From the IMG/VR virus record IMGVR_UViG_3300017987_000335, positions 1-25,496 of that record: a stretch of DNA of 25,496 nt. One strand, written 5' to 3'. Made by a program: the position numbers and the translations under genes. A model generated the notes under the pieces. The model saw nothing but the letters and a program-made list of their open reading frames with translations. It did not search any database and had not been told where the DNA came from. This document shows positions 235 to 25,496 of this stretch, in pieces (the first letter of the stretch is position 1; the number at the start of each line of letters is the position of its first letter). The stretch is from a virus.

Positions 235-1082
235 CCAGCCTTCCTCCAGTAAGCAGGTCTGTTGTTCGACAAGCGAGTCGATACCGGCTCGTAACCATGC
301 AACCGCATCGTCTTGTTGAATTCACGCTGTGCCATTCTGCCCGGAACCGCCGGAGAAGACAGCCCCAATCCGCCAACGGTTTTCAACTTGTACGTTGGAA
401 AATGTCCAACCGATCGACCAGAAAAAGCATTGGCAACGATCATGGCCACCGGTTCCAATTCCAAGATTTATTCCAAATGAGTCAACGGTTCTTCAAAATG
501 CTCGAAGTATTCAGAAGCAAAAACCAAACCACCCTTTCTCAAACCATCGATGCTGTCAACGATTGAAACACCCACGCCTCTTCCCATTATACGAGCGATT
601 GAAATTTGTTTCGAGCCCTCGATGTTTGTGCCAACAACATCAGCGTTTGGAAACAATTGTTTGAGTCCAGCAGTCGTAAAGCCGATGCCGCATCCAACAT
701 CAATCACCGTTTTCACAGCAGACAGGTCGTCAACGATGCTCTTGTTGTCCAGGGATTTCTGGTGATTGATCCCCTTCAAATACCCCCTGGAATAAATCCT
801 CCAGCAAGCCCATGTTTCCGACAAGTAGCTGTCTTCTCCGTACACTCCATAATCGGGCTTTCCAGCTTCCAACGAGTCGTACCACCTGTTCTCGTACCTT
901 TCAACACGCTTCTCTTCCTCCGAACTCAATTTCCTGCGCATGTATTTTCTGGCCAAGATGTCCGACATTTCAGCAACGACGGAAACGTCAATCCCTTCGA
1001 CCTCTCCACATGCATCCAAGAACAATTGGTGGAGTTCTTTGTTCCTTGCGTTCAGTACATCTTTCAACAAGTTGACATTCAT
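231..1082 (-). pseudogene. Class I SAM methyltransferase interrupted by an in-frame TAA
   Basis: The frame from ATG 1082 encodes 204 residues with SAM-binding motif I, VIDVGCGIG, at about 126-134 and an acidic loop ending EYFEHFEEPLTHLE. It then meets TAA at 470-468. The same frame continues without a gap for about 78 codons to TGA at 231. That second part reads like the expected C-terminus of this methyltransferase type (MIVANAF, a GHF segment, then NNRPAYW near the end). A single G to T change from GAA would create the stop. The start overlaps the stop of the radical SAM gene (ATGA), and the end overlaps the next start, so spacing supports one ancestral gene. It may be a recent nonsense mutation, a sequencing error, or stop readthrough. 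The 204-residue product alone lacks the last part of the fold. The substrate is unknown. Confidence 0.75.
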
Positions 1083-9360: not shown

Positions 9361-10200
9361 CTAATCGTCGAACGACAGAGAACGACTGGGCATGTCCTTC
9401 AGCAGCCCGCGGATCTGTTCTCCGACTTCTTGCAGGCCCTTGCGAGTTGCAGTTCGAACAGATTCGATGTCGCGAAAATCTGCCCGGGACTTGCCGCTCA
9501 TCAATTCCTTGGCTTGGTCGACCAATTTCACCAGCTCGGCGTCGTCAACCACCAAGCGTTCTGGCAAGAGAGCAATCCATTCGTTGAAGGATTGCAGTGC
9601 CTTGTCAGTGACTGCCCGCTTTTTGCCGTTCTTCTTCGTGCCGAGCATTCCGGACAACTTGTCGATCAGATCGAGCAGACCGCACCGAAGGGCAGCCTTG
9701 ATCTCGTCGATCGCCCTCGACAGTTCCTCAGTCTGCTCGATCCCGTTGCTGGGGGCAAAGTCCAAGAACAAGCGTTCCATCCAGAACTTCCGGCGCATCT
9801 GATCGACCGGCGGATAGTTGTTCTGGTTGAACTGCCCCCGCAACCGTTCTTTTGCGTTCTTGATCAGAGTGGGATACTCGTTGCAGAAGGCGTCTGCCGC
9901 AGCGTTGAACTCGCTCTCGGCTTCCTTCAACTTTTCTTCCACCGCGTCGACGAGCGACTCGGGAATCAAGTAGGTGCCGGATCGCAGGGGACTGGGCAGC
10001 GACCTGGCTTCGATCCACTGCCTCGTCTTGATCGAAATGACTTGTGCCTTGCGAAACGACTCGCTGCGAAAGATCTTTTTCTGCAGCCGCAACTCACTCT
10101 TGTCCGCATCCACCGACACGTCACCGAGCGAACCCTTGCGGGAATCACCCGGGAGGTGGAACGTCACGGACAGGCAACGCGTTTTCTTCAACTGGTTCAT
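9361..10200 (-). CDS. Unknown 279-aa protein, possibly DUF3150-like
   Basis: ATG 10200 follows AAGAAGGAGACTTGTG; a GTG three bases upstream is also possible. The product has a beta-rich N-terminus (LSVTFHLPGDSR to SVDADKSELRLQKKIF). A helical region typical of a structural or regulatory scaffold follows (LVDAVEEKLKEAESEFNAAADAFCNEYPTLIKNAKERL), then a long helical C-terminal part rich in Asp/Lys. The EFN...F...YP.L....RL pattern reminds me of the DUF3150 family, often found near AAA+ ATPases in phages. The AAA+ gene two positions upstream would fit. This family assignment is weak. Confidence 0.72.
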   Translation of the reverse strand: MNQLKKTRCLSVTFHLPGDSRKGSLGDVSVDADKSELRLQKKIFRSESFRKAQVISIKTRQWIEARSLPSPLRSGTYLIPESLVDAVEEKLKEAESEFNAAADAFCNEYPTLIKNAKERLRGQFNQNNYPPVDQMRRKFWMERLFLDFAPSNGIEQTEELSRAIDEIKAALRCGLLDLIDKLSGMLGTKKNGKKRAVTDKALQSFNEWIALLPERLVVDDAELVKLVDQAKELMSGKSRADFRDIESVRTATRKGLQEVGEQIRGLLKDMPSRSLSFDD

Positions 10201-10307
10201 CACAAGTCTCCTTCTTCTGTGCCGGCAAACCCTGCCGGCGTGGGGTCAGCCAACTCGGCCAACTCCGTCGGGCACCCGTTGCCGGATGCCCTCGGGACTT
10301 GGTCGCG
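10201..10307 (-). promoter_or_regulatory. Structured leader before the 9361-10200 gene
   Basis: This gap can form a hairpin GGGCA-T-CCG-GCAA-CGG-G-TGCCC with a GNRA-type GCAA loop. A direct repeat GAGTTGGC-CGAGTTGG follows, and then a 7-bp, 5-nt-loop hairpin (GCCGGCA-GGGTT-TGCCGGC) ends four bases before AAGAAGGAGA. The last hairpin has the same stem and loop lengths as those in the four tRNA-like leaders, but I cannot find the tRNA-like part here. Confidence 0.4.
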
Positions 10308-10703
10308 TCAAAGCACTTCAAAACCTCCGCACCCGCGAAGGAACTTGACGAACTCCTTGATGTGACTGTCACCGATTTTGTAGGGTGACAACCCTTGGGT
10401 GGGGACAGCGTTGCGAATGAAACATCCGTTTTCATCTACTCGCACCGTCGAGTCCTCGACGGTAATCCCACCCTTGTTCGTTTCGAGCCAGCTCTCGATG
10501 CGGTCGGCCAGCTCGTCGCATTTCTCCTGCGAGTCGAGCCCGGCACCGTCGTTGTACCCCATCGACTTGAGCGTCTCCTCGTCGAACAAGTCCGATCCGA
10601 CCTCTGCGATGAGGCCGTGGAGCGGTCTCCACGACCACACGGAAGCCCGGAAGTACTTGCCCGTCTCGGTCGTCGGGCTTTTGCCGTAAACGTCCATACC
10701 CAT
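10308..10703 (-). CDS. Conserved unknown protein (MGMDVYGKSP family)
   Basis: ATG 10703 follows GAAGAAGGAGACTGATC; the longer upstream frame runs through the structured leader and is rejected. The 131-residue product begins MGMDVYGKSPTTETGKYFR, then VWSWRPLHGLI, a start I recognise as recurring in phage and bacterial hypothetical proteins without known function. The middle (GYNDGAGLDSQEKCDELADRIESWL) is helical and the C-terminus carries GDSHIKEFVKFLRGCGGFEVL. No catalytic motif is evident. It carries one of the four tRNA-like leaders, and that control may be the best clue to its role. Confidence 0.82.
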   Translation of the reverse strand: MGMDVYGKSPTTETGKYFRASVWSWRPLHGLIAEVGSDLFDEETLKSMGYNDGAGLDSQEKCDELADRIESWLETNKGGITVEDSTVRVDENGCFIRNAVPTQGLSPYKIGDSHIKEFVKFLRGCGGFEVL

Positions 10704-10709
10704 GATCAG

Positions 10710-10799
10710 TCTCCTTCTTCTCGAACGCCTCGCCCGAAGTGGGCTCGGCAAAACCGCCGGGCGGGAGTTGCACCCGCCATGAACCGTCTCGGCCGGCGG
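10710..10799 (-). promoter_or_regulatory. tRNA-like leader element, copy 1
   Basis: Minus-strand order is as follows. A 6-bp stem (10794-10799 with 10754-10759) encloses a 15-nt linker and a 6-bp arm (10773-10778 with 10760-10765) with the 7-nt loop TGCAACT. The two helices abut, giving 12 stacked pairs as in a tRNA acceptor/T arm. A hairpin with an internal mismatch follows at 10727-10749, then the conserved block GTTCGAGAAGAAGGAGA (10710-10726) ending in the ribosome binding site of the 10308-10703 gene. This is the most divergent copy, and its loop departs from the canonical T loop. Confidence 0.6.
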
Positions 10800-10858: not shown

Positions 10859-12343
10859 TCATCCAACTGCCCGGCGGACATTGGCCCGCTCTGGCAGCTT
10901 ATAGGTACCTGAGTAGCTGGCCGAGATGTACCGGCCAGCCGCTTCTTTCCGCAACCGCTCGATGCGTTCCGGATCGGCCTTGGCCACCGGAACAACGAAC
11001 TGTGCCGCGTCGATCAGCGGCACGTTCCGCTCCCACGCTCCTTGGCAGCAGGCCCTGATCTCGGCCCCTGTCCAGTTGCTGTCGTCCGGGCGATCTTGTC
11101 CGGCGTCCAGCTCGTACTTGGCCAGGTAGTACTGCCAGATCACTTGCCGTTCTTCTTCGTCCGGCAGGTCGAAGAAGAATGTGCCGGCGGTGAAACGCCT
11201 CCGGAGTTCCGGGGGCAGGTTCGCGATGGCGTTGCAGGTGGCCACGAACAGCGGCCGATCGTTGCTGACCGCCGTCACCACCTTCATCGCTTGCCGGATC
11301 TTCTGCTCGCTGGAGCCAACCAGCGAGGACTTCATCGCGTTGGTGTCAAGGGCGATGGTCGGCACGCCGGCCTCGGCCCCTATCGACTTGGCAAGCATCG
11401 ATTTGCCGGCACCAGGGTGGCCGACGAATATCATCCCAGCCACGTCGTGGTCCTGCATGTAGGTCAGCAAGACCTGCAAGAAACCCTGGCTCGTGCCGGA
11501 CGAATCGCCCGTGCCGGCAGTGGCTCCGGCCAGCAGCTTCTCGATTTCATCGATAAATACCACCGCCCCGTAGTCGCGGCGGCCCTGGATCAGCGAGCCA
11601 CAGTACTGCTTGGCGTTGTCCAGTCCGCCGACGTCGGCGAACCTCTCGCCGCCCCGCCAGCAACTCAGGCCGGGCGTGTCCTCGATCATCGACCGCTTGA
11701 CCTCCCACAGATGGTCCAGGTCGATCCCGTCGGGACGCACGGCCATCGCCACAGCCTGCTCAGCGGCAAAGGCAGCCAAGCCCTGCACGGCTTCGACCGC
11801 CTTGGCGATGGTGACATCATCTGCCAATTCACGCCCTTCGCAAGCATCGGTGGCCGCCGCGTCGATCGACCGGACGATCTTCTCCAGCTCTTCGGGAGTC
11901 GGCAGCTCCTCGTCCAGCCCGACCACGTCGCCCTCCAGTTCGGCGGGCACTTCACTGTCTCGACCGAGCAGGACCAGCGTCCTGCGGTCGGCCTTGAATT
12001 CGTCCCGCAGGTTCCAGATTCCTTGCAGCCAGGGCAGCCCGGCAGCCTCGGCGACCTTGCCGGCATTGTGGACGAACAGGATCGTCTTGGCCGGTAGCTT
12101 GGCCGCCTCGTCGATCAGTCCGAGGGGGTTCTGTACCGTGTTCTCGGGGTCGATGCAGGACATCGCATCCTGCCCGGCCTCGTTGACCGGCAAGACGCCC
12201 CGCTGGACGTCCCAGCTCAGGATCGGGCCGTTCTGCAGCCTCTCAGCAACCAGGCTGATGGTTGCCGCCGCGTCCGGCGTTCCGATGCTCACCAGCGGGA
12301 CGCCGGCACGCCTCGCGTGCTTCAGTTTCTCAAGCAAGTACAT
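10859..12343 (-). CDS. Ycf46-like AAA+ ATPase with Walker B block before Walker A
   Basis: The 494-residue protein starts at ATG 12343 after AAGAAGGAGACCGACT. Residues about 18-160 resemble the inactive N-terminal ATPase-like domain of Ycf46-type proteins (ILSWDVQRGV, then KTILFVHNAGK and RRTLVLLGRDSEVP). After a helical spacer comes FADVGGLDNAK (235-245), then VVFIDEIEK (261-269), which is a Walker B-like strand. Only after that comes Walker A GHPGAGKS (308-315), followed by GSSEQKIRQAM, sensor-1-like FVATCN (366-371) and arginine-finger-like PPELRRRF (377-384). The usual order is Walker A first. The C-terminal part holds the lid (ATPase small domain) and a tail. The role is unknown; AAA+ proteins of this kind remodel other proteins. 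Confidence 0.85.
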   Translation of the reverse strand: MYLLEKLKHARRAGVPLVSIGTPDAAATISLVAERLQNGPILSWDVQRGVLPVNEAGQDAMSCIDPENTVQNPLGLIDEAAKLPAKTILFVHNAGKVAEAAGLPWLQGIWNLRDEFKADRRTLVLLGRDSEVPAELEGDVVGLDEELPTPEELEKIVRSIDAAATDACEGRELADDVTIAKAVEAVQGLAAFAAEQAVAMAVRPDGIDLDHLWEVKRSMIEDTPGLSCWRGGERFADVGGLDNAKQYCGSLIQGRRDYGAVVFIDEIEKLLAGATAGTGDSSGTSQGFLQVLLTYMQDHDVAGMIFVGHPGAGKSMLAKSIGAEAGVPTIALDTNAMKSSLVGSSEQKIRQAMKVVTAVSNDRPLFVATCNAIANLPPELRRRFTAGTFFFDLPDEEERQVIWQYYLAKYELDAGQDRPDDSNWTGAEIRACCQGAWERNVPLIDAAQFVVPVAKADPERIERLRKEAAGRYISASYSGTYKLPERANVRRAVG

Positions 12344-12699: not shown

Positions 12700-12957
12700 C
12701 TAGGATTGAATGGACTCAATTTCTTCGTACAGGGCAGCGATGATGGACTTGAGAGCCTCGATGCGCTCGTCGTGTTGGCTCATCGCTTGCTCGCAGTATT
12801 CTGGACCCTTGGGATAGTAATCCCGGTTGTTCGGTCCTGCTTTTGCCAGCTTGTCGCCAGCTTCGTTCAGGGCATCGATGGCATCAAACCGGCTGTTGAG
12901 CAGCGACTCCCGGCTGCTCCCGTTCAAGTGAACGACTGGGGGTACAGCTCGAATCAT
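12700..12957 (-). CDS. Small unknown helical protein
   Basis: The 85-residue product begins MIRAVPPVVHLNGSS at ATG 12957, with GAAGAAGGAGACCGAG just upstream. It is followed by about 60 residues that look like two amphipathic helices (DAIDALNEAGDKLAKAG and HDERIEALKSIIAALYEEIES). No motif is recognised. It carries a tRNA-like leader (12963-13043). The next gene starts 21 bases after its stop. Confidence 0.78.
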   Translation of the reverse strand: MIRAVPPVVHLNGSSRESLLNSRFDAIDALNEAGDKLAKAGPNNRDYYPKGPEYCEQAMSQHDERIEALKSIIAALYEEIESIQS

Positions 12958-12962
12958 CTCGG

Positions 12963-13043
12963 TCTCCTTCTTCTCGAACGCTCCGGACCCCCCGGAGCTA
13001 GGAGGGCGTGGCGGAGTCGAACCGCCCAGTCCCGGTCGCCCTC
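12963..13043 (-). promoter_or_regulatory. tRNA-like leader element, copy 2
   Basis: On the minus strand GAGGGCG (13037-13043) pairs with CGCCCTC (13002-13008) in a 7-bp acceptor-like stem. Inside, after a 10-nt linker, GGCGG-TTCGACT-CCGCC (13010-13026) forms a 5-bp arm with a loop that fits the tRNA T-loop consensus TTCRANY exactly. Next come a 7-bp, 5-nt-loop hairpin (12980-12998) and GTTCGAGAAGAAGGAGA (12963-12979), which is the ribosome binding region of 12700-12957. D and anticodon arms and a CCA end are absent. Confidence 0.75.
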
Positions 13044-13051
13044 GTTCCCGT

Positions 13052-13303
13052 TCATCCGATCACCAGCAGTCGCCGGTTGTTTTCGCCGGTCTCTTCGTGG
13101 AACGGAATCCCGGCCGCTTGCATCCTGTCGAGCAAGTTGTGCCGACTGGCCGCATATTTGCCGCCGAAGTTCTTGACGGCTCCCCGCAGGGTCGAGCCAC
13201 TGAGGCTTTCACGGCCAAGCAGCAAGTCCGTTTGGTAACTGCCCTTCGCCAGTTTGAGGGCTTGCTGCAAAGCCTCTTCGTTCCGCACGATCGTCCAACT
13301 CAT
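13052..13303 (-). CDS. Small unknown basic protein
   Basis: ATG 13303 is used because GAAGAAGGAGACTAACA precedes it; the longer frame would translate the tRNA-like leader. The 83-residue product (MSWTIVRNEEALQQALKLAKG, then GRESLSGSTLRGAVKNFGGKYAASRHNLLDRM) is basic and mixed helical/strand. SGSTLRGAVKNFGGKYAASR could be a DNA-contact region, but no family is recognised. Confidence 0.78.
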   Translation of the reverse strand: MSWTIVRNEEALQQALKLAKGSYQTDLLLGRESLSGSTLRGAVKNFGGKYAASRHNLLDRMQAAGIPFHEETGENNRRLLVIG

Positions 13304-13309
13304 TGTTAG

Positions 13310-13391
13310 TCTCCTTCTTCTCGAACGCTCCGGACCTCCCGGAGCAAGGCCGCCGTGCTGGAGTCGAACCAGCAACCTCCCGGCCGGCGGC
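13310..13391 (-). promoter_or_regulatory. tRNA-like leader element, copy 3
   Basis: The minus strand pairs GCCGCCG (13385-13391) with CGGCGGC (13349-13355). The inner arm is GCTGG-TTCGACT-CCAGC (13357-13373), and a neighbouring T-A can add a sixth pair. The loop is a canonical T loop. The hairpin GCTCCGG-GAGGT-CCGGAGC follows at 13327-13345, then GTTCGAGAAGAAGGAGA at 13310-13326, serving 13052-13303. Compared with copy 2, nearly all stem bases differ while pairing is kept. Confidence 0.75.
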
Positions 13392-13862: not shown

Positions 13863-14174
13863 TCACCACCTCATCTTCGTGATCTGGGCTTTGCTGCCCT
13901 GGAGCTTGCAGCTCCACTGGCACTTCTTGGCCGCGGCTTTGATGGCCTCGCGGCTGTAGGCACGCTTGATGTTGTTCAGCTCGCCCTGGCATCCGTCCTG
14001 AACAACAGCCTTGCCGTTGTCCAAGTCCAGCACGATCTGGCCGGTGCCGAGCACCAGCCGCCCATCGGCGAGCTCTCGCGACGGCAAGCCGATTTTGCTG
14101 AGAGCTGCATTGAGCATGCTCTTGTTCTCGGCTTTGAACTCGACCGAGACGGTTCTCACTTCGTAACAAGGCAT
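13863..14174 (-). CDS. Unknown 103-aa protein, weak DUF1257-like pattern
   Basis: Two adjacent ATGs (14177, 14174) follow GAAGGAGACC. The second gives the usual spacing, while a GTG at 14219 overlapping the previous stop lacks such a site. The product begins MPCYEVRTVSVEFKAENKSMLNAAL, has GRLVLGTGQIVLDLDNGKAVVQDG, then NIKRAYSREAIKAAAKKCQW and ends in ITKMRW. The AYSRE....A.K..W block followed by a terminal strand reminds me of DUF1257 (Ycf35-like) proteins, whose function is unknown. This is a weak resemblance. Confidence 0.75.
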   Translation of the reverse strand: MPCYEVRTVSVEFKAENKSMLNAALSKIGLPSRELADGRLVLGTGQIVLDLDNGKAVVQDGCQGELNNIKRAYSREAIKAAAKKCQWSCKLQGSKAQITKMRW

Positions 14175-14215
14175 CATGGTCTCCTTCGTCGTTTGAGTTT
14201 CGTTTTGTTTGAAGG

Positions 14216-14836
14216 TCACATGCCGTAGCGTCCAGCGGGAAACGCTTCGGCGAGCAGCTCGTCCTGCTTTTCATGGGATTGCTCGCCGAGCCACTTGACT
14301 GCAGCTTCATCATCACCGTACATCTCAACGTAGCCACCGGAACCCAGTCCGCAGGCGGACACGGCATCCCGAACTTCCTCGGCGTCCATGACGACCTGCT
14401 CGGGGTCTTCGCCCCCGCAGGCCAGCACGTCGCAGCCGATAGCCTGCCAGGTACGCCGGAGGGCTTGAACTGCCCGTTCGGCTTTGGTTCCAGAACTCCA
14501 GTTCCAGACGGTGGCCTGGATGCGGCGTTTGAGGTTCTGGTAGAACCGGGGGCGGGTCTCGTCCTCGTCCAACATGTCACGGACGGAGTCTAGGGCGTCC
14601 AGCAAGACCGCTTTCGGCCGATCCGCCTTGCCCCGGTCCATCCACGACTCGCAGACGTCCTCGGCAATTTGAGCCAGCCAGGTAGCCCATTCGTGGGCTC
14701 CGTCGAAGCATTCCTGCTTCGAGCGCAGCCAAGTCGACATCTTGTTGCTCCAATCCGAACCGAACTCCGGCACTGGGCCGGCGTTCTTGACGGATTCTTT
14801 GAAACGATTCTCGAAGTACGTGTCTGAATTTCTCAT
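14216..14836 (-). CDS. Unknown 206-aa protein
   Basis: ATG 14836 follows AAGAAGGAGACCTGAGTC, a site that spans the stop of the upstream gene. The product is tryptophan-rich and helical (FGSDWSNKMSTWLRSKQECF, AHEWATWLAQIAEDVCESWMDRG), with a central RPRFYQNLKRRIQATVWNW segment. An acidic second half ends in DELLAEAFPAGRYGM. No catalytic motif or family is recognised. Tight spacing with the glycosylase gene suggests cotranslation. Confidence 0.78.
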   Translation of the reverse strand: MRNSDTYFENRFKESVKNAGPVPEFGSDWSNKMSTWLRSKQECFDGAHEWATWLAQIAEDVCESWMDRGKADRPKAVLLDALDSVRDMLDEDETRPRFYQNLKRRIQATVWNWSSGTKAERAVQALRRTWQAIGCDVLACGGEDPEQVVMDAEEVRDAVSACGLGSGGYVEMYGDDEAAVKWLGEQSHEKQDELLAEAFPAGRYGM

Positions 14837-15688: not shown

Positions 15689-15952
15689 TCAGTCGTTTTC
15701 ATCCTCGTTCAATTCCAACTCGGTTGCCAATCCGTCCAACTCGTCGGCCAAGGCATCGGCAAAGTCCTTGTACCGTTTCTCGGTGCGGTTCAGTTTGCGG
15801 TCAGCCACGGATTCATCGAGGCACGACTGCATGACCGCGCTGTTGAGCGTGTCGACCAGCTCGAACATCGCGTCTTCCGGGTCGTCCAAAACCTCGACGA
15901 ATGCCCATTGCAGCATCTTCGCCACTCCGTGCGGTGTGAGTGTGGTAGCCAT
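15689..15952 (-). CDS. Small unknown acidic helical protein
   Basis: ATG 15952 is chosen because GAAGAAGGAAATCTGAC precedes it; the longer frame crosses the tRNA-like leader. The 87-residue product is helical and ends in an acidic run (ADELDGLATELELNEDEND). The N-terminal part reads MATTLTPHGVAKMLQWAFVEVLDDPEDAMFELVD. No motif is recognised. It is the fourth gene with a tRNA-like leader, and the site here reads GGAAA instead of GGAGA, so translation may be weaker. Confidence 0.77.
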   Translation of the reverse strand: MATTLTPHGVAKMLQWAFVEVLDDPEDAMFELVDTLNSAVMQSCLDESVADRKLNRTEKRYKDFADALADELDGLATELELNEDEND

Positions 15953-15958
15953 GTCAGA

Positions 15959-16040
15959 TTTCCTTCTTCTCGAACGCTCCGGACCTCCCGGGGCAAGGCG
16001 CCCTGGCCGGCAACGAACCGGCTTTGATCCTCTCCAGGGC
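15959..16040 (-). promoter_or_regulatory. tRNA-like leader element, copy 4
   Basis: The minus strand pairs GCCCTG (16035-16040) with CAGGGC (16000-16005). The inner arm is GCCGG-TTCGTTG-CCGGC (16006-16022), directly abutting the outer stem as in tRNA. The loop keeps TTCG but ends TTG, so the canonical A58 is missing. The 7-bp hairpin at 15976-15994 has one mismatch, and the terminal block reads GTTCGAGAAGAAGGAAA (15959-15975). It serves 15689-15952. Confidence 0.68.
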
Positions 16041-18203: not shown

Positions 18204-18439
18204 CGTAGTTGCCCTTGATTTCGTTGCTTCAAAGCGGCCCGAAAAATCCTGCGGTTGACGGCCTTGTCTTCCTTCACGATCGAGTAACTGTTCCTCTCGT
18301 CGCGGCACAAGAGAGCTCTGCCCAACCGGTTGTCGATCGTCAGCGTCTTGGCAGATGCATGCCCGTGCCGATCCGTCACCCAAACATCGATGCGATCGAT
18401 CGGCTTCCTCCGGAACAACCGCTTGAACCAGTTCATCAT
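18170..18439 (-). CDS. Small basic unknown protein
   Basis: The 89-residue product starts at ATG 18439 (or 18436), overlapping the glycosyltransferase TGA. GGGAGC lies about 10 bases upstream. It opens MMNWFKRLFRRKPIDRIDVWV, a short hydrophobic/basic amphipathic start that could touch membranes. It continues with strands (AKTLTIDNRLGRALLCRDERNSYSIVK) and a basic end. No family is recognised. Coupled translation to the glycan cassette suggests it belongs to that transcript. Confidence 0.7.
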   Translation of the reverse strand: MMNWFKRLFRRKPIDRIDVWVTDRHGHASAKTLTIDNRLGRALLCRDERNSYSIVKEDKAVNRRIFRAALKQRNQGQLRWEDDNEPVKL

Positions 18440-19209
18440 AGCTTCAGTGCTCCCTGGTACCTCTCTGGAAAATCGCCGCACTGCCAGTAGGTCAGCAGCG
18501 GGTGCCCGGGAAAGACATTCCTCGGGTAGTAGTATCCCAGCATCTCGTGTCGTTCCAGATAGCGCTGAACTCCCATCCAGCGGCGGCCGTTCATCAAGTC
18601 GAGGTAGAGGGCCTGAATCTGCTGGCCGGACCAGCTGGGATTCTGCTGGTGGAGTTGCAGCAACGCGGACGAGACCTCACGGTTGCGGACGTACATGCAG
18701 CCGCCGCCCGGCATCAACTTGGCTGCGAACTTTGCTTTTCTTCCCCGAACTGCTTTCGACGGCGGCGGCTCGTTGATCTCACGGGCAGTTCTCGCGTCCC
18801 TCCACCATGCTCCCTTCCTGGCCGATCTCTGTCCGCACAAGGCCGACCGGAACGGGGCCTTCTTCGACAGGTCCGACCACCACCACGGATCGGGCTTCCT
18901 GACCATCCGAACGTCCAGGTCGACCCACAGGACGGGTCCGAAGATTTCAACCATGTGGTCGATGATCATGAACTTGTGAATCCAGTGGCATTGTTCGGCA
19001 GGCGCCAGCTTGGGATCTGAATGCAAGACCCTGATCTTGCTCTTGGGCCATCCCAAGTTCAGCAGGACATCCCTGTTGTTCTTTCCAAACACGCCGACTG
19101 CTTCGCACGGCTCTGCCAACGACTTCTTGGCAGAGCCGTGCAGGTCCATGTCGCAGTGGCCCTGCTTGGACGTTCCCCAGATGCCCCTGATGATCGCCGG
19201 TCGTTTCAT
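18436..19209 (-). CDS. Glycosyltransferase-like protein with DLD motif
   Basis: The 257-residue product starts at ATG 19209, overlapping the previous TGA (ATGA). It has VLWVDLDVRMV at about 93-103, a DXD motif that in GT-A glycosyltransferases binds the metal and the nucleotide sugar. GGGCMYVRNREV further on fits the acceptor-side strand of such enzymes. WIHKFMIIDHMVEIF before the DXD strand resembles GT8/GT32-like layouts. Family and sugar are not determined. It is probably a cytoplasmic enzyme of the surface- or virion-glycan cassette. Confidence 0.72.
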   Translation of the reverse strand: MKRPAIIRGIWGTSKQGHCDMDLHGSAKKSLAEPCEAVGVFGKNNRDVLLNLGWPKSKIRVLHSDPKLAPAEQCHWIHKFMIIDHMVEIFGPVLWVDLDVRMVRKPDPWWWSDLSKKAPFRSALCGQRSARKGAWWRDARTAREINEPPPSKAVRGRKAKFAAKLMPGGGCMYVRNREVSSALLQLHQQNPSWSGQQIQALYLDLMNGRRWMGVQRYLERHEMLGYYYPRNVFPGHPLLTYWQCGDFPERYQGALKL

Positions 19210-19925
19210 TGGTAGCTCGTAGTCAGATGCCGTACCCGGTAGATCCCGGGCAGATCGATTCGTTCGGCACGCCCGTGCTGCTTGCACCTGTCTCGAAAAG
19301 CGATGTCGTCCTTGAACGAGCGAAAGGGCTTCTCGCACGGCCCGATCCACGACGTGCCGTCCAGATAACCATGCTCGCGGGCGTACTGCCCGCTCACGAT
19401 CTGGACTCCCCCGATTGCCCGGTTGTACTTCTTGTCAACGTAGTCGCCCGAATCTATCTTGAATGTGTGAGGAAAACTGGCAGCATGCTGGTTCATCGTC
19501 CTGTCACCAGTCTCGTGGTCCCGGCTGATCTGAATCAGGCCGGGGTACCGGAGCGACACGTCGCCGGGCCAATCCATCGCCAGCAGAGCATTGACGCATT
19601 CGGCCGTGAACAAATGGTCGACGTCGGTGAACCAGACCACGTCAGCGCTAGTTATCTTGGCAAGCAAGTTCCGGCCGTTGCATCTCTTGCCCAACATCTT
19701 GACGGGCATCGGGCTCAGCAGGAGTTCGATGGATGGTGGCCACGAAATGATTTCAGTCATCTTGTTGGTTGTAATCCAATCGTTTGAGCTGTAGCAGAGC
19801 CCGTAGATGATCTGATGGGGACCCTCGTAACTGGCAAGCGAGGCGGCCTGGAGCATCATTGCCCTTGCGAAGTGGCCGTGTTCCATCGCGTAGCAGTGGG
19901 AAACGAACAGGATGGTTTTGCTCAC
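19206..19925 (-). CDS. GT-A glycosyltransferase-like protein
   Basis: The 239-residue product uses GTG 19925, which overlaps the KdsB-like TGA (GTGA) with GAAAGGAATCCCA upstream. VVWFTDVDHLF (about 96-106) gives the DXD metal/sugar-nucleotide site. IGGVQIVSG and FKDDIAFRDRC later supply the acceptor loop and an acidic pair that could be catalytic. The N-terminus KTILFVSHCYAMEHGHFARAM is a Rossmann-like start. Donor and acceptor are unknown. Next to a CMP-sugar synthetase it may use a nucleotide-activated sugar made by the cassette or by the host. Confidence 0.72.
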   Translation of the reverse strand: MSKTILFVSHCYAMEHGHFARAMMLQAASLASYEGPHQIIYGLCYSSNDWITTNKMTEIISWPPSIELLLSPMPVKMLGKRCNGRNLLAKITSADVVWFTDVDHLFTAECVNALLAMDWPGDVSLRYPGLIQISRDHETGDRTMNQHAASFPHTFKIDSGDYVDKKYNRAIGGVQIVSGQYAREHGYLDGTSWIGPCEKPFRSFKDDIAFRDRCKQHGRAERIDLPGIYRVRHLTTSYQ

Positions 19926-20611
19926 TGGGATTCCTTTCGCCTCTTGAACTCAGCCCAATCGGCCTTGGTGTTGATCGACAGCGGCATCTCGTCGACATGT
20001 CGGAGGACGAACTTCCGGTCGAACAGCGTTTGCTCCAACCCCTGCGGTGGGGTTGCTTGGTTCCGAATACTCAACAGGGATTCCCTGTTGAAGATGTAGA
20101 TGCCGATGTGTGCTAAATCCCTGCCGTAGTTGCGGCTGAACGCGACTCCGCTGGCACTCCACCGGTCGGGCCATGCCTTGACAATGTGGGGATTGTACCA
20201 ATCTTCAGGATTGGTTATCGGCCCGACAAAAGTAACGACTTCATTGTCATGCTGTTCCAGGGTCAGCGCATCGACCAAAGCACCGGGCGGGAATTCCGGC
20301 TCATCCACCTGCCAGTTGACGATTCGATCTGCATTCGACAATCTCGCTGGCTCTTTGCAGCGGCTGGTGCCGGTCGGATGGCCTTGCGTGATGAAAAACG
20401 GGATCGATCGGGTGCGGCACACATCGATTATCCTGTCTTCGTCTGTTGCTACTACAACTTCGAAGCCCGTTTTCTTCGCCTGCTCGTAGGTCCATTGAAC
20501 CAACGGCTTGTCTCCCGCTTTCAGCAACGGCTTGTTCGGCAGCCGGGAGCTGCCGAGCCTGCAGGGGATGACAATCAGCACGCTACCAGTAGTCGTAGGC
20601 TTCATAGACAT
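19922..20611 (-). CDS. kdsB: KdsB-like CMP-Kdo synthetase (cytidylyltransferase)
   Basis: The 229-residue protein has the family start VIPCRLGSSRLPNKPLL, then VVVATDEDRI, HPTGTSRCKEP and VNWQVDEPEFPP, which correspond to the conserved ARLxSTRLPxKPL, ATDDxRI, HxSGTDR and NxQGDEP blocks of 3-deoxy-manno-octulosonate cytidylyltransferase. The reaction would be CTP plus Kdo (or a related 2-keto sugar acid) to the CMP-sugar plus pyrophosphate. GTDR reads GTSR and QGDEP reads QVDEP, so substrate preference may differ. It starts at ATG 20611 after AAGGAGACAGAAGCAG, inside the end of the upstream gene. Phage-borne copies are unusual. Confidence 0.85.
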   Translation of the reverse strand: MSMKPTTTGSVLIVIPCRLGSSRLPNKPLLKAGDKPLVQWTYEQAKKTGFEVVVATDEDRIIDVCRTRSIPFFITQGHPTGTSRCKEPARLSNADRIVNWQVDEPEFPPGALVDALTLEQHDNEVVTFVGPITNPEDWYNPHIVKAWPDRWSASGVAFSRNYGRDLAHIGIYIFNRESLLSIRNQATPPQGLEQTLFDRKFVLRHVDEMPLSINTKADWAEFKRRKESQ

Positions 20612-21116
20612 CTGCTTCTGTCTCCTTGATTTCCCTCGCGACCCAGTTCGGAACAGCCGGGCCGCACTCCTTGTTCACCGGCAGCCTCCTCAACGTGCTG
20701 ACGAGAGTCGGATCGGTGTCGAGCGACAATGCCAGTTCGATGAATGCCCAGGGCGTGTCTTCCACCCGCAGCATCACATCAGATTCGTACCTATTATACA
20801 GTTCAGTGATCCTGCCGGGCATCTTTTCGATGTAGTCAGAAGCAAACTCCTCGAAGGATCCATCCCCCAACTCGGCAAAGAACATGATGCCATTCGAGAG
20901 CCTGGCATTCTTCAACCGGCTGTAGACCACCCTGAGAAAATCAACGGGCCGCCGCGTGATCGACACCCGCAACTGTTCTCGGTCCGATCCTGTCCATGGT
21001 TCATGGGCATGATGCCGGAAGCCGGGACCGTAACCGGCCAGCTGCGCGGCCGATATGAACCAATCCTCACCCGTGCAAGGAGGTGCTGCAAATGAAAACT
21101 TCCCGTAGTCGATCAT
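20583..21116 (-). CDS. Sulfotransferase-like protein
   Basis: The 177-residue product starts at ATG 21116, overlapping the methyltransferase TGA with GGAGAAAAA just before it. FAAPPCTGEDWF (residues 9-20) resembles the PAPS 5'-phosphosulfate loop and VSITRRPVDFLRVVYSRL (51-68) the 3'-phosphate-binding block of sulfotransferases (RxP..w..S.y). The usual lysine of the PKTG loop is replaced (PPCTGE), so catalysis is uncertain. The protein is short and may be a diverged or degenerate relative of the 24159-24773 enzyme. Confidence 0.6.
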   Translation of the reverse strand: MIDYGKFSFAAPPCTGEDWFISAAQLAGYGPGFRHHAHEPWTGSDREQLRVSITRRPVDFLRVVYSRLKNARLSNGIMFFAELGDGSFEEFASDYIEKMPGRITELYNRYESDVMLRVEDTPWAFIELALSLDTDPTLVSTLRRLPVNKECGPAVPNWVAREIKETEADVYEAYDYW

Positions 21117-21649
21117 TTTTTCTCCAGCCACCATACGAGTTGCTTGCCCTTGTGGACCTCGAAGCCCAACCGTTCGCAGAAGAAATCCACGGCCGGCTTC
21201 ACGCCGAACCGGCCCACCCTGTCCGATCGCCCGTCGTAGTCGTGTCCCATGATCAACCCGTCGAGCTTGACGCAGGGCCAGATGGAAAACAGGTCGCTCA
21301 TCACGAACTCGTGCTTGTGGTTGGCATCGATGTAGACCCAGTCCAGCTTGCCGAGGAACTTGGAAGCTTGCACGATGTCTTGGATGATGATCGTCCGGCG
21401 GCCGGCCCACGGTTCCGTGTTGTGCTTGGCCTCGAGCATCGACTGTTCGGTCACTTCCAAGTCGCCCATCCGGTTCGCCTGCCACGAGTCGACCATGAAC
21501 AACCGCAGATTGGGAAACTGGCTGAGAAGCCTCGCCGACAGCTCGCCCTTCCAGACGCCCAACTCGGCACCGACCATTGTTCGATCGCTGCCGAACCTGT
21601 CCCTGAGAATCTCGGCCACTTGGTTGTGGTACACGCCCTGTCTAGTCAT
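21113..21649 (-). CDS. Class I SAM methyltransferase
   Basis: The 178-residue product starts at ATG 21649 (GGGAGCAAAACA upstream) and overlaps the previous stop by 8 bases. GAELGVWKGE (27-36) is SAM motif I in the form seen in Methyltransf_24-type enzymes. MVDSW is motif II, LDWVYIDANHKHEFVMSDL holds the acidic motif and GLIMGHDYD the next strand. A GVKPAVDFF segment late in the chain is also typical. These enzymes methylate small molecules or sugars, and the context suggests glycan O-methylation. Confidence 0.8.
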   Translation of the reverse strand: MTRQGVYHNQVAEILRDRFGSDRTMVGAELGVWKGELSARLLSQFPNLRLFMVDSWQANRMGDLEVTEQSMLEAKHNTEPWAGRRTIIIQDIVQASKFLGKLDWVYIDANHKHEFVMSDLFSIWPCVKLDGLIMGHDYDGRSDRVGRFGVKPAVDFFCERLGFEVHKGKQLVWWLEKK

Positions 21650-22493
21650 TGTTTTGCTCCCGTGGTTGAAGCCACCTGCGGCGGATATTTCGCCAAGCAA
21701 CTCCGCTCTTGATTTCATCCATTGTCCAGTGAGTGTACGCCATCTGGTGCAGCCATGCCTTGCGGTCGAATGTTTTCGGGTGGATGATGTCGTCCGAAGC
21801 CCACCCATAGATCATCGACACCGGACCCATCGCAACCACGGGCCTGCCTGCCAGTGCTGCCAAGACCCCCACGTTCGACGACCAGGTGACGACCACCGAA
21901 TCTTCCATCGCTTTCTCCAGCGGGGTTCCGAAATCCAGCTTGCAATTCCTCGGCCGGAATCTCGACAGCGCCGGCTTGCTTTCTGGATGGAACCGGAACA
22001 CCGGGCGGAGCCTGTGCTTGTGGCACCATTCTATCTGCTCGGCATACCACCGCCGGATGCTTTCGCATTCCCACAGCGATGCGTCCCTGTCGACCTGCCC
22101 GACGATCAAGGCCCGGCTGAAGTTCAAATCCCAGGGCTTCAACAAGCGGTCCCAGCCGAGCATCTTCCAGCGGGGCGATCGACCGACGACCTTGTCTCCC
22201 ATGCCGTTGATGTCGTTCACGGTCACCGTGACCATCTTCGTCCGGTTGCCGATGCAACCCAACTCGCAGTGAACGATGTCCTTGCCGGCTTCCCTCAAGA
22301 GATGCAAGTTGCCCTGGTGCCGCCGGCCCCACTGAACGCCTGCATCGAACATGGCGGCGTCGGCAAACATCCCGTTGATCTTGGTCTTGCGTTTTTCACA
22401 GTTGTCGCCGGCGGCAGCGATGCCTTCAGCCAACGCCCTCATGACCCTGGCCGGATGAGACCGGCCCTTCGCCAACCGGCAGATGATGTTCAT
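21642..22493 (-). CDS. GT-B-like glycosyltransferase, capsule-type
   Basis: The 283-residue product starts at ATG 22493 overlapping the previous stop. The C-terminal half has FRFHPESKP (168-175) and TWSSNVGVLAALAGRPVVAMGP (203-224), the H-P-x-x and S-S-x-x-G...A...G.P.V pattern seen in GT-B-fold capsule transferases of the KpsC/KpsS Kdo-transferase type. With a CMP-Kdo synthetase in the same cassette, a Kdo transferase is attractive, but the match is by pattern only. It could equally use another sugar. Confidence 0.6.
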   Translation of the reverse strand: MNIICRLAKGRSHPARVMRALAEGIAAAGDNCEKRKTKINGMFADAAMFDAGVQWGRRHQGNLHLLREAGKDIVHCELGCIGNRTKMVTVTVNDINGMGDKVVGRSPRWKMLGWDRLLKPWDLNFSRALIVGQVDRDASLWECESIRRWYAEQIEWCHKHRLRPVFRFHPESKPALSRFRPRNCKLDFGTPLEKAMEDSVVVTWSSNVGVLAALAGRPVVAMGPVSMIYGWASDDIIHPKTFDRKAWLHQMAYTHWTMDEIKSGVAWRNIRRRWLQPREQNND

Positions 22494-22678
22494 AGTTCCC
22501 CGTCGCAGTCCAGCAGGTGCAGTCCCCTCATCTCCTCCGGCGTCGGCAACAAGATTCTCCGGTTCGCCTTTCCCTTCAACATCAACTTGGCTGCCAGCTT
22601 GTCGCCGATGTCATTGGCTTTCCTCACCAGCTCGGCATCCCGGCGGCTCACTTTGGCCATCCGGATTCCCAGTATCAT
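22490..22678 (-). CDS. Small basic unknown protein, 62 aa
   Basis: ATG 22678 overlaps the methyltransferase TGA (TGATG) and the stop at 22490 overlaps the next start, so the frame fits exactly between two genes. The product is basic and helical (MILGIRMAKVSRRDAELVRKANDIGDKLAAKL), then KANRRILLPTPEEMRGLHLLDCDGEL. No family is recognised. The ribosome binding site (CAAGAAATTGTG) is weak, so translation probably depends on coupling. Confidence 0.65.
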   Translation of the reverse strand: MILGIRMAKVSRRDAELVRKANDIGDKLAAKLMLKGKANRRILLPTPEEMRGLHLLDCDGEL

Positions 22679-23292
22679 CACAATTTCTTGAGGCATGCCA
22701 TGTACCTGTGCTTCCAGATTTGCTCGACGCAGCGACCGTACTTCTTCATGAACATGTCCAGCCCTTCCTTGACGTGATGCCACTTGCGTCCGTCGTTCTC
22801 GACGTCGTCCATCAGCATCCACCCTCCGGGCTTGAGCAACTGGAGGCACTGGTAGGCATCGTCGAGCACGTAGGGAGCCCAGTGGTTCCCGTCGACCATG
22901 CAGATGTCAACCGACCTCCTGGTGATGCCGGCAAGGCCCTCTCCCTTCATCTTCCTCAACACCTCGGACGAGTGGCCCCTGACCAACTGGCACTGGTGCC
23001 AAAGGCCCACATTGTGCAAAGCCCGCTGCCGTACCATTTCCATCATCGTTCCGTCGGCTTTGACCGTCATCAACCACGGGTCGATTCCCACACCGCGAGC
23101 ATTCGGATGGGTCAAAACACGCTCGGCCATCCAGCACATCGACTGGCCCTCGAACACTCCGATCTCGAGGTAGGTGACGGGCTTGGCCGCGAACTCCGGA
23201 TGAACGAATTTACGGAACGTCGGCAAGTTGCGGTTGCGAAACCAGTTCCGCGTGAACTGGTAACCGTTGGGTGTCAAGTCCATCTCTCTCAT
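22678..23292 (-). CDS. Class I SAM methyltransferase (Methyltransf_24 type)
   Basis: The 204-residue product starts at ATG 23292 overlapping the glycosyltransferase TGA (ATGA). It has YLEIGVFEGQSMCWM (41-55) as SAM motif I, VGIDPW as motif II, VDICMVDGNHWAPYVLDDAY with the acidic and histidine residues of the active site, and LLKPGGWMLMDDV as the following strand. This is the standard layout of small-molecule O-methyltransferases in glycan clusters. It probably methylates a sugar; the substrate is unknown. Confidence 0.85.
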   Translation of the reverse strand: MREMDLTPNGYQFTRNWFRNRNLPTFRKFVHPEFAAKPVTYLEIGVFEGQSMCWMAERVLTHPNARGVGIDPWLMTVKADGTMMEMVRQRALHNVGLWHQCQLVRGHSSEVLRKMKGEGLAGITRRSVDICMVDGNHWAPYVLDDAYQCLQLLKPGGWMLMDDVENDGRKWHHVKEGLDMFMKKYGRCVEQIWKHRYMACLKKL

Positions 23293-24149
23293 GGCAGCAG
23301 TTTCTCTCGTATCATGTACTTGTTGTTGATCCGGCCGATCCACTCGGCCATGCCCCCCACATTGTTGACCAAGCACTCGCTGAAGATCGGAGTCCACAAG
23401 TCCCAGCCCTTCTGCGACTTGTCCCGGCGAACGTTGCAGTCGCCATGATAGTGGCGGATTGCCACATCATCATCGGCCAAACTCGACGGCTGGTACTTCG
23501 GGGAACAGTTGAACCGACCTCCCGTCATCGTCGTGAACACTTCGGGCGGGAAGATGGTTTGCATCAGGTGCAGCACGGCCTCGTCGGCGATGAACGTTGA
23601 CCTTGCAGCTTCCGTCCACCGCAGCCACACGGGCAGCACGGGAGAGGACGGCCGGCAAGCCCAAACACCCCCGTTGGGCGAAGGATACGGGTGGCGGACG
23701 CAGAGCTCGACGGCTTCTTGGTCGATCTCCAGGAACTGCCGCAGCCGCTCGACCCGGTTCTTCGGCTGGCCGTGGTTCGACAGCCAGTCCCCGAACTGCG
23801 TAGCGACGAACGAGTGCTTCATGACGTTGCCAATCAGAGGGCTCAAGCACCCGTGAACTGTCGTGTCGGCATCCAGGTAGATCACGTGGTCCATGTTGAT
23901 GTAGTTCATCGCCAGCTTGATCTTGTCGATGAACTGGTCGTTCTTCCCCCTGTACGTGGGCTCCCGCAGCTTGGCGACGATGTTCAAGTTGGTGTCTTGG
24001 GCAATCCGCTGCACCAACGGCCAGCTCTCGCGCCAAGCGTGCACGTGAACAGGACCGCTCCAGTGTTTTCTCAGCGTGCTCAGCGAGCAGACCAGGTAGG
24101 GCAGATGGGCGTCATGGCTCATCAAGTAGAACACCGCTTGGTTGATCAT
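23289..24149 (-). CDS. GT8-like glycosyltransferase
   Basis: The 286-residue product begins MINQAVFYLMSHDAHLPYLVCSLSTLRKHW at ATG 24149, behind TAGGAAAACAAC. VIYLDADTTVHG (89-100) is the DXD strand, preceded by a KIKLAMNYI helix, and PNGGVWACRPSSPV is an acceptor-loop strand. FIADEAVLHLM carries an acidic D-E pair. The order matches GT8-like retaining galactosyl/glucosyltransferases. The sugar is not determined. Nine bases separate it from the sulfotransferase gene. Confidence 0.8.
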   Translation of the reverse strand: MINQAVFYLMSHDAHLPYLVCSLSTLRKHWSGPVHVHAWRESWPLVQRIAQDTNLNIVAKLREPTYRGKNDQFIDKIKLAMNYINMDHVIYLDADTTVHGCLSPLIGNVMKHSFVATQFGDWLSNHGQPKNRVERLRQFLEIDQEAVELCVRHPYPSPNGGVWACRPSSPVLPVWLRWTEAARSTFIADEAVLHLMQTIFPPEVFTTMTGGRFNCSPKYQPSSLADDDVAIRHYHGDCNVRRDKSQKGWDLWTPIFSECLVNNVGGMAEWIGRINNKYMIREKLLP

Positions 24150-24158
24150 GTTGTTTTC

Positions 24159-24773
24159 CTATGTGAAGTACCGATCAATGACCTTGTGCTCCGATTCAAG
24201 AATGGCCCTTCTCAAACCGTGAGTCACGACGGGTTTCGGATGCTTGGAAGCGTTCACGTGGTAGATTTTGTCCTGGATTCCGGGGAACAATCCCTCGAGG
24301 TCTTCGGCCAGCGTTGCCGAGTATCTGACGATCTCGACATCGGAGGTGTACGCTTCGCAGATCGAAGAGTAGATGCCCGGACTGTCTCCAGTCAACTGCT
24401 TGACGAACTGGTGGAACGGCAACTTGGCCGGCTCCACAAACCAACGCATCGGATGCCACTCATATTCCTCGAGAAACGACTCGTACCGCTTGCCCTTCTT
24501 CTCGCGGCCAACCCGGACATCTTGCAAGTAGCGCCACATGCTCACGTACCAGTGGACCGGATGCCGGACGAAGCAAAACGGCTCGGCGAGGCCGGCCGGA
24601 TGTTGATGTTCTTGCAGCAGGGCAAATGTCACGTGGCGGCCCGGGTATCCATGCCAGTGGTGCCGCAGGCACTGGGCATCAGGAAAATGCTTCTGCAGCG
24701 CCTGCTCGACTGCCACGCCGCCGGTCTTGGGGATGTGGATGAACACCATGTTCTGCGAGGGAAGCCAGATCAT
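24159..24773 (-). CDS. Sulfotransferase family protein
   Basis: ATG 24773 lies one base after the previous TGA; a longer start at 24848 would overlap the upstream gene by 74 bases and adds an unrelated segment. The 204-residue product has FIHIPKTGGVAVEQAL (11-26), the PAPS 5'-phosphosulfate loop with its catalytic lysine. It also has FCFVRHPVHWYVSMWRYL (66-83), the 3'-phosphate-binding block with the RHP motif. This is typical of carbohydrate sulfotransferases of the Sulfotransfer_2/HIPKTGG type. It would transfer sulfate from PAPS to a sugar hydroxyl in the glycan made by the cassette. Confidence 0.85.
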   Translation of the reverse strand: MIWLPSQNMVFIHIPKTGGVAVEQALQKHFPDAQCLRHHWHGYPGRHVTFALLQEHQHPAGLAEPFCFVRHPVHWYVSMWRYLQDVRVGREKKGKRYESFLEEYEWHPMRWFVEPAKLPFHQFVKQLTGDSPGIYSSICEAYTSDVEIVRYSATLAEDLEGLFPGIQDKIYHVNASKHPKPVVTHGLRRAILESEHKVIDRYFT

Positions 24774-24774
24774 T

Positions 24775-25496
24775 TCATTGTTGCCTGAATACTGGAGTCC
24801 ATTGAAACGGAACAGGGGTGTCAGCCGTGAAAACCCCGCCTTCATCATTGCAGTTGGGCCAAGGGCACCTCTTGTCCTTCTGCTTCATGAACGGAGACTC
24901 GTACCGTTCCAGCCACCGCTCTTCCGAGCAGAATCCACCCTCCATCTCGTCGATCAACCGGCTCATCACCCACTCGTCGTGCCAGTTCTTCTCGTCCATC
25001 CTGCGTTCAACCTCGTCGATGAACTCCCTGCCCTGAAGATACATCCAGTTGCCGGAAGCTCCCGACCGTTGCATTCTCGTCGATTCATCAGTTCTCGGGC
25101 GTTCCCGGTAAAGAACTCGCCAGTAGGCAAAGATGGACAACAGGAACCGGTGCGAGGGGAGCTCGTCGAGCATCGCCTGGATGAACTCAGGCCGCGTCGG
25201 CTCGAAGAAAACATCCCAGTCGGCGTAGATCAACTGGCCGTGGTCGCTGGCGGCTTGCTGCAGCAAGTGGACCTTGTAATGCCAGGGGCGGTGCCATCTG
25301 CCCTTGACTTGGTGGTCGCATGCTCCGTCGGGAAACGGGCGGGTGTCTGCCAACACTACTTCACAGCGGGGCAGTTTCATCTCGGAAACAAGGTGGGCAT
25401 TGTCCTGGCCGTAGCAATAGACGAACGTGGGCAGCAAGCAGTGCTTGTGCCGGGGCTGCTTCACGTCCTTCACGATCTTGGGCCAGCGAAACCCCC
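24775..25496 (-). CDS. Glycosyltransferase-like protein, 5' end possibly outside window
   Basis: The frame is open to the window edge. An internal GTG at 25473 gives 232 residues, but no clear ribosome binding site is visible, so the true start may lie beyond 25496. LPTFVYCYGQDN resembles the first strand of the fold. GQLIYADWDVFFEPT (79-93 from the GTG) is a DXD strand of a GT-A enzyme, and ASGNWMYLQGREFIDEVERRM is a likely acceptor-loop region. Family and sugar are unknown. The stop at 24775 lies one base before the sulfotransferase start. Confidence 0.75.
   Translation of the reverse strand, partial: GFRWPKIVKDVKQPRHKHCLLPTFVYCYGQDNAHLVSEMKLPRCEVVLADTRPFPDGACDHQVKGRWHRPWHYKVHLLQQAASDHGQLIYADWDVFFEPTRPEFIQAMLDELPSHRFLLSIFAYWRVLYRERPRTDESTRMQRSGASGNWMYLQGREFIDEVERRMDEKNWHDEWVMSRLIDEMEGGFCSEERWLERYESPFMKQKDKRCPWPNCNDEGGVFTADTPVPFQWTPVFRQQ

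Follow-up and report, generated by a model that had tools for sequence, protein, structure and literature searches.

A phage-borne family of Ycf46-like AAA+ ATPases in which Walker B precedes Walker A

Here we report a Ycf46-like ATPase from a virus in which the Walker B motif precedes Walker A, together with a family of related proteins of the same order. Very probably these proteins possess a true AAA+ core whose P-loop sheet has had two neighbouring segments exchanged with the catalytic site kept; the change probably goes back to a single origin in a phage-borne Ycf46-like lineage. Few molecular machines have been studied as intensively as AAA+ proteins, which are recognised and classified by the order of their motifs. 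The gene is located in IMG/VR virus record IMGVR_UViG_3300017987_000335, of which positions 1 to 25,496 were analysed (25,496 nucleotides; hereafter the window). Coordinates of the features are given in Table 1.

Table 1. Features of the swapped ATPase and its cassette partners in the window.
Feature	Position	Strand	Basis
Permuted Ycf46-like AAA+ ATPase, 494 aa	10859..12343	-	ORF and translation; Pfam AAA 58 bits, in two stretches
N-terminal alpha/beta domain, residues 1-222	11678..12343	-	Strands and helices alternate in the model; Foldseek; no P-loop in the sequence
Moved block B, residues 255-301	11441..11581	-	Piece 232-301 matches Pfam AAA positions 58-95; block profile 69 bits
Contents of block B: Walker B strand b3 (260-264), helices 267-275 and 284-299			
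Walker B VVFIDE, residues 261-266	11546..11563	-	Translation and alignment
Block A, residues 302-361 (b1, Walker A, a1, b2, pore loop, a2)	11261..11440	-	Pfam AAA positions 1-53; block profile 98 bits
Walker A GHPGAGKS, residues 308-315	11399..11422	-	Translation and alignment
Likely pore loop 1 KSSLVG, residues 338-343	11315..11332	-	V342 in 105/110, G343 in 110/110
Residues 362-494 (sensor-1 strand b4, arginine-finger region, b5, putative helical lid, C-terminal tail)	10862..11260	-	Model and block profiles
Sensor 1 FVATCN, residues 366-371	11231..11248	-	N371 in 110/110
Arginine finger region RRRF, residues 381-384	11192..11203	-	R383 in 110/110
DUF3150 protein, cassette partner	9361..10203	-	Pfam DUF3150 36.9 bits (cutoff 24.9); homologues in 121 loci
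DUF1257/Ycf35-like protein, cassette partner	13863..14219	-	5.9e-13 match to a family profile built without it
Probable DUF2997 protein, 70 aa	13399..13611	-	Cluster of 27 loci

Results

A first-pass annotation of the window had placed Walker B before Walker A, and translation of the minus-strand gene bears out both this order and the motif positions, with VVFIDEIEK at residues 261-269 and SEQKIRQAMKVV at about 345-356. Along the chain the motifs follow each other as Walker B, Walker A, sensor 1 and arginine finger, whereas the usual AAA+ order is Walker A, Walker B, sensor 1, arginine finger. The sequence has the classical AAA motifs, namely a Walker A with its lysine and S/T, a hydrophobic Walker B strand ending in DE, the sensor-1 asparagine and the arginine finger. 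In an alignment of 110 non-redundant sequences, E266, K314, N371 and R383 (the last arginine of the finger) are each invariant (110/110), and position 265 is D in 108 sequences and E in 2. This conservation, together with the 134 proteins that share the swapped order (see below), shows that the order is not a product of chance. By analogy with classical AAA proteins, KSSLVG (residues 338-343) is the likely pore loop. By ancestry the protein is an AAA+ ATPase of the Ycf46 type that departs from the usual motif order.

The Pfam AAA profile matches the window protein piecewise, residues ~232-301 corresponding to model positions 58-95 and residues 302-361 to positions 1-53, while in Rhizobium phage L338C, Agrobacterium phage JP1 and two proteins of the normal-order sister group it runs in one stretch over positions 1-129 or 1-130. 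Likewise, PHROG 8638 is matched in four stretches by the swapped proteins and in one by their normal-order relatives, so that the full-length, single-stretch match that marks Ycf46-like proteins is not found in the swapped ones. PHROG 8638 had itself been considered as a swapped family, with its P-loop at position 307, and was rejected when profile matching identified it as a normal-order family.

The order of the segments was determined by cutting the alignment into four blocks (N-terminal, B with Walker B, A with Walker A, and C-terminal) and placing a separate profile of each independently on 212 candidates. The order was N-B-A-C in 134 proteins and N-A-B-C in 69; the other 9 were truncated or distant. 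The blocks of swapped proteins join with a median of 1-2 residues, and the linker that precedes block A in normal-order proteins (median 14 residues) is absent from them. No intermediate with a doubled block was present among the proteins checked by block profiles. Swapped-order relatives were obtained from viral contigs, GTDB genomes and annotated phages by searches of all three, among them Tunturiibacter phage Tunturi_3, whose host is cultured, and two copies on the complete chromosome of Nitrospira moscoviensis. Searches of the viral contigs with the single Tunturi_3 and JP1 proteins yielded no loci. One swapped-order copy (L002:3126-4555, the same as L014) shares 88% identity with the window protein and lacks roughly the b1 strand and the P-loop, which puts it out of frame; it is either a pseudogene or an assembly error.

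An AlphaFold2 model of the window ATPase, computed from a 108-row alignment, had a mean pLDDT of 93.2 and a pTM of 0.85. Along the chain it contains b3 (260-264), helices 267-275 and 284-299, b1 (302-308), a1 (314-325), b2 (329-332), a2 (342-360), b4 (364-370) and b5 (387-391), i.e., the strand order b3-b1-b2-b4-b5, followed by helices after b5 that may represent the C-terminal lid; Pfam AAA_lid_3 was matched below its cutoff, in one relative. The model of the normal-order sister protein L281 runs b1, a1, b2, a2, b3, a3, b4, with lower confidence (pLDDT 82). The AAA+ sheet consists of five parallel strands in the spatial order 5-1-4-3-2. Mean-field coevolution analysis of 134 proteins (about 91 effective) gave a weak signal. 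Its highest-scoring strand pairs, b1-b4 (z 4.6) and b3-b4 (z 4.4), are those expected for this sheet, but non-neighbour pairs reached z 3.9, so that the agreement is weak.

Foldseek matched p97, Cdc48, Rix7 and NVL over both domains, with alignments of 530-620 columns against the D1-D2 chains of p97, Rix7 and NVL. Among viral models the best matches were Ycf46-named phage proteins, near full-length and with TM-scores of 0.61-0.70, which cannot credit the moved block because Foldseek aligns in sequence order. These matches cover the layout of Ycf46-like proteins, a degenerate N-terminal domain followed by an AAA domain, and support the label 'Ycf46-like' given at first pass. Because of the fold match and the lack of Walker motifs, we interpret residues 1-222 as a first AAA domain in degenerate form, a feature shared with Ycf46 proteins. 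The further proposal that Walker B strand and helix were relocated together, as a single unit, is upheld by the Pfam mapping, the four-block order with its junctions of one to two residues, the similar flanking sequence of normal-order relatives, and the swapped strand order in the confident AlphaFold2 model.

The phylogenetic position of the swapped proteins was analysed with IQ-TREE for 54 proteins, using only the N and C columns, which are blind to the swap. All 22 swapped proteins fell into one clade (100/100), which lies within the normal-order proteins and has the normal-order L274/L281 group as sister (joint clade 99/97). FastTree gave the key branch low support (0.387), against the 100/100 of this smaller IQ-TREE analysis. 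Judged from these sequences, the swap probably arose once, since one change of order suffices, and its direction is taken as normal to swapped because of the nesting and because normal order is the rule in other AAA+ proteins.

The swapped ATPase is encoded in a cassette. Among the swapped-family loci, 121 contain DUF3150 homologues, 119 DUF1257/Ycf35-like genes and 119 DUF2997 genes, most commonly in the order ATPase-DUF1257-DUF2997-DUF3150; in the normal-order set, DUF1257 and DUF2997 are found in 76 and 77 of 90 loci. Linkage to Ycf35/DUF1257 and DUF2997 genes, as expected of a Ycf46-like protein, is thus present. Other members of the family of the window's DUF1257-like protein pass Pfam DUF1257. 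The probable DUF2997 protein gave a weak but top match (E 0.13) to a DUF2997 profile built without its cluster, and the DUF2997 family was confirmed among relatives; the window protein ends in a histidine-rich tail (HAKHHHHSHDHVHGHHHH) that is possibly metal-binding. A normal-order ATPase lies beside the same four-gene cassette, annotated as such, on a plasmid of Candidatus Manganitrophus. A cyanobacterial cluster DUF2997-ycf35-fed7 has been reported (PMC4284462), and ycf35 and ycf46 are both present in red-algal plastids (PMC5940233). A gene for a radical SAM activating-enzyme-like protein recurs near the swapped ATPase in 27 loci (e.g., L020:8895-9446).

A copy is carried by only 4 of the 78 genomes sampled from the order to which Nitrospira moscoviensis belongs, a rarity more in keeping with a mobile element than with a core gene. 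The copy in N. moscoviensis is adjoined by a ribonucleotide reductase. Assignment to the anti-phage ATPase IetA/IteA (PADLOC/NCBIfam) was rejected, the match being limited to the P-loop part instead of the full length and scoring 33 bits against a cutoff of 510; a defence-system reading was also discarded for the PADLOC IetA match (41 bits, residues 303-353), again a partial match to the P-loop.

Several other features were noted in the window and in normal-order relatives. The window contains four copies of a repeat on the minus strand (10698-10728, 12951-13023, 13298-13370 and 15947-16019), in all of which GCGTTCGAGAAGAAGGA is exact and which apparently lie just upstream of start codons; four copies occurred in 0 of 100 shuffles. 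Three copies are longer, reaching 62 nt and including a GC-rich part, and two terminate in GGTTCGACTCC, a sequence similar to a tRNA T-arm; ARAGORN detected no tRNA at these repeats. A run of genes at 18436-25473 (minus strand) encodes sugar- and methyl-transfer functions (a cytidylyltransferase, two methyltransferases, and weak matches to a glycosyltransferase and a sulfotransferase) and perhaps serves surface or glycan modification. In the normal-order relative L253:4896-7532, the P-loop is split (GPPGC...TGKS) by an in-frame insert that contains an HNH-like segment, terminates in HN and is probably an intein. In six further normal-order relatives (L293, L294, L295, L296, L297 and L300) the frame ends right after the a2 helix and the match spans about 2.0-2.2 kb versus 1.2-1.4 kb, which suggests an intron or intein after a2.

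Discussion

The proposed rearrangement would have converted an ancestral b1-a1-b2-a2 / b3-a3 / b4-b5 into b3-a3 / b1-a1-b2-a2 / b4-b5, and a tandem duplication from b1 to a3 with subsequent loss of the outer copies would yield this result. Because all strands of the AAA+ sheet are parallel, placing b3-a3 ahead of b1 would require only wider spans of a3 and a2. The five strands could remain parallel and in place, and two crossovers would be altered, a3 leading to b1 (formerly b4) and a2 to b4 (formerly b3); reasoning from the AAA+ fold, each of the two helices would cross one extra strand, and the active-site edges of the strands would be unchanged. As only these two helical crossovers change, a single, presumably functional active site is still predicted to form from the residues of Walker A, Walker B, sensor 1 and the arginine finger.

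An artefact of assembly or a chimera might be suspected because the window stems from a metagenomic viral contig, but the same order in 134 distinct proteins makes this practically inconceivable, and the records of phage Tunturi_3 and the complete Nitrospira moscoviensis chromosome rule it out. That residues 261-269 are not Walker B, their DE motif being coincidental and a later acidic strand acting instead, is very improbable. Conserved acidic residues do end strands after residue 315 (D333 and D392), but they occupy the same places in normal-order relatives, whose Walker B is separate, and the Walker B part of the Pfam AAA model aligns with the moved block, which has the invariant E266. The reading of 261-269 as Walker B, for which the first-pass annotation had named such a later strand as the alternative, therefore stands.

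Permutation and segment exchange between subunits can look alike in sequence, and the model computed here is of a single chain. The b3-a3 block might thus insert into the sheet of the next protomer, giving an interlocked ring with the active site between subunits; we regard this as improbable, since the whole core is modelled with confidence as a single chain and the junctions are so short that they leave little reach for an exchange. It is also unlikely that the swapped proteins are dead ATPases with a structural role. The sixth P-loop residue (position 313) is indeed A, S or C instead of G in 89 of the 134 swapped proteins, a relaxation that seems to accompany the swap, as glycine is found in each of the 45 normal-order proteins that the pattern matched; with the residue replaced in two thirds of the family, activity is not guaranteed in every member. 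The window protein retains the glycine, however, and the lysine, both Walker B acids, sensor 1 and the arginine finger are kept almost without exception. Alanine or serine at this position is found in active MCM and RavA/MoxR ATPases.

The exchange of two segments within a catalytic AAA+ core accordingly remains our preferred reading. Since the swapped ATPase occupies the same cassette slot as its normal-order relatives, it most likely does the same job, and the predicted remodelling of a partner would most likely involve its SLVG pore loop. Tentatively, like other Ycf46 and classical AAA proteins, it may form a ring that uses ATP to remodel its partner, its N-terminal domain being degenerate and its C-terminal domain active, and may act together with the DUF3150, DUF1257 and DUF2997 proteins.

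In the open-access literature we found no description of a permuted AAA+ core, P-loop or Walker order (subscription journals were mostly outside the scope of the search). The family is likely to be the first case in nature of an AAA+ core whose internal segments are swapped, a change that became fixed a single time, in a phage lineage, and spread to more than 130 known proteins that still work as ATP-driven motors in the cassette of their ancestors. This would mean that an AAA+ layout regarded as invariable can be rewired with its working parts kept, and the question posed is how far chain connectivity can vary while the active site and inter-subunit signalling are kept. The swapped clade and the surviving normal type in the same cassette constitute a natural experiment on altered motor connectivity. 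Because standard profile searches match swapped proteins only in pieces, similar variants may be overlooked elsewhere.

Among known systems, the Ycf46-like phage ATPases of PHROG 8638 (e.g., gp50 of Rhizobium phage L338C and gp26 of Pseudomonas phage SM1) share the N-terminal domain without Walker motifs, the classical AAA core and the linkage to DUF1257 and DUF2997 genes, but have Walker A before Walker B, as in ordinary AAA+ proteins. Closest in the tree are the normal-order sister group (L261-L292, L281) and the Candidatus Manganitrophus plasmid ATPase WDT77853, which share the same four-gene cassette including DUF3150 and very similar flanks (e.g., DDxNWTGAEIKxCC), but differ in their normal segment order and a longer linker before b1 (median 14 residues). 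By fold comparison, p97/Cdc48, Rix7 and NVL have the same two-domain AAA layout as the swapped ATPase; both of their domains are in normal order, and the first domain of p97 has its own Walker motifs. The circularly permuted GTPases (YjeQ/RsgA, YlqF) are P-loop NTPases that work with an altered chain order of motifs. Theirs is a circular permutation of the GTPase domain, whereas in the swapped ATPase two internal AAA+ segments are exchanged, and the N-terminal helix and the C-terminal part of the domain are unmoved.
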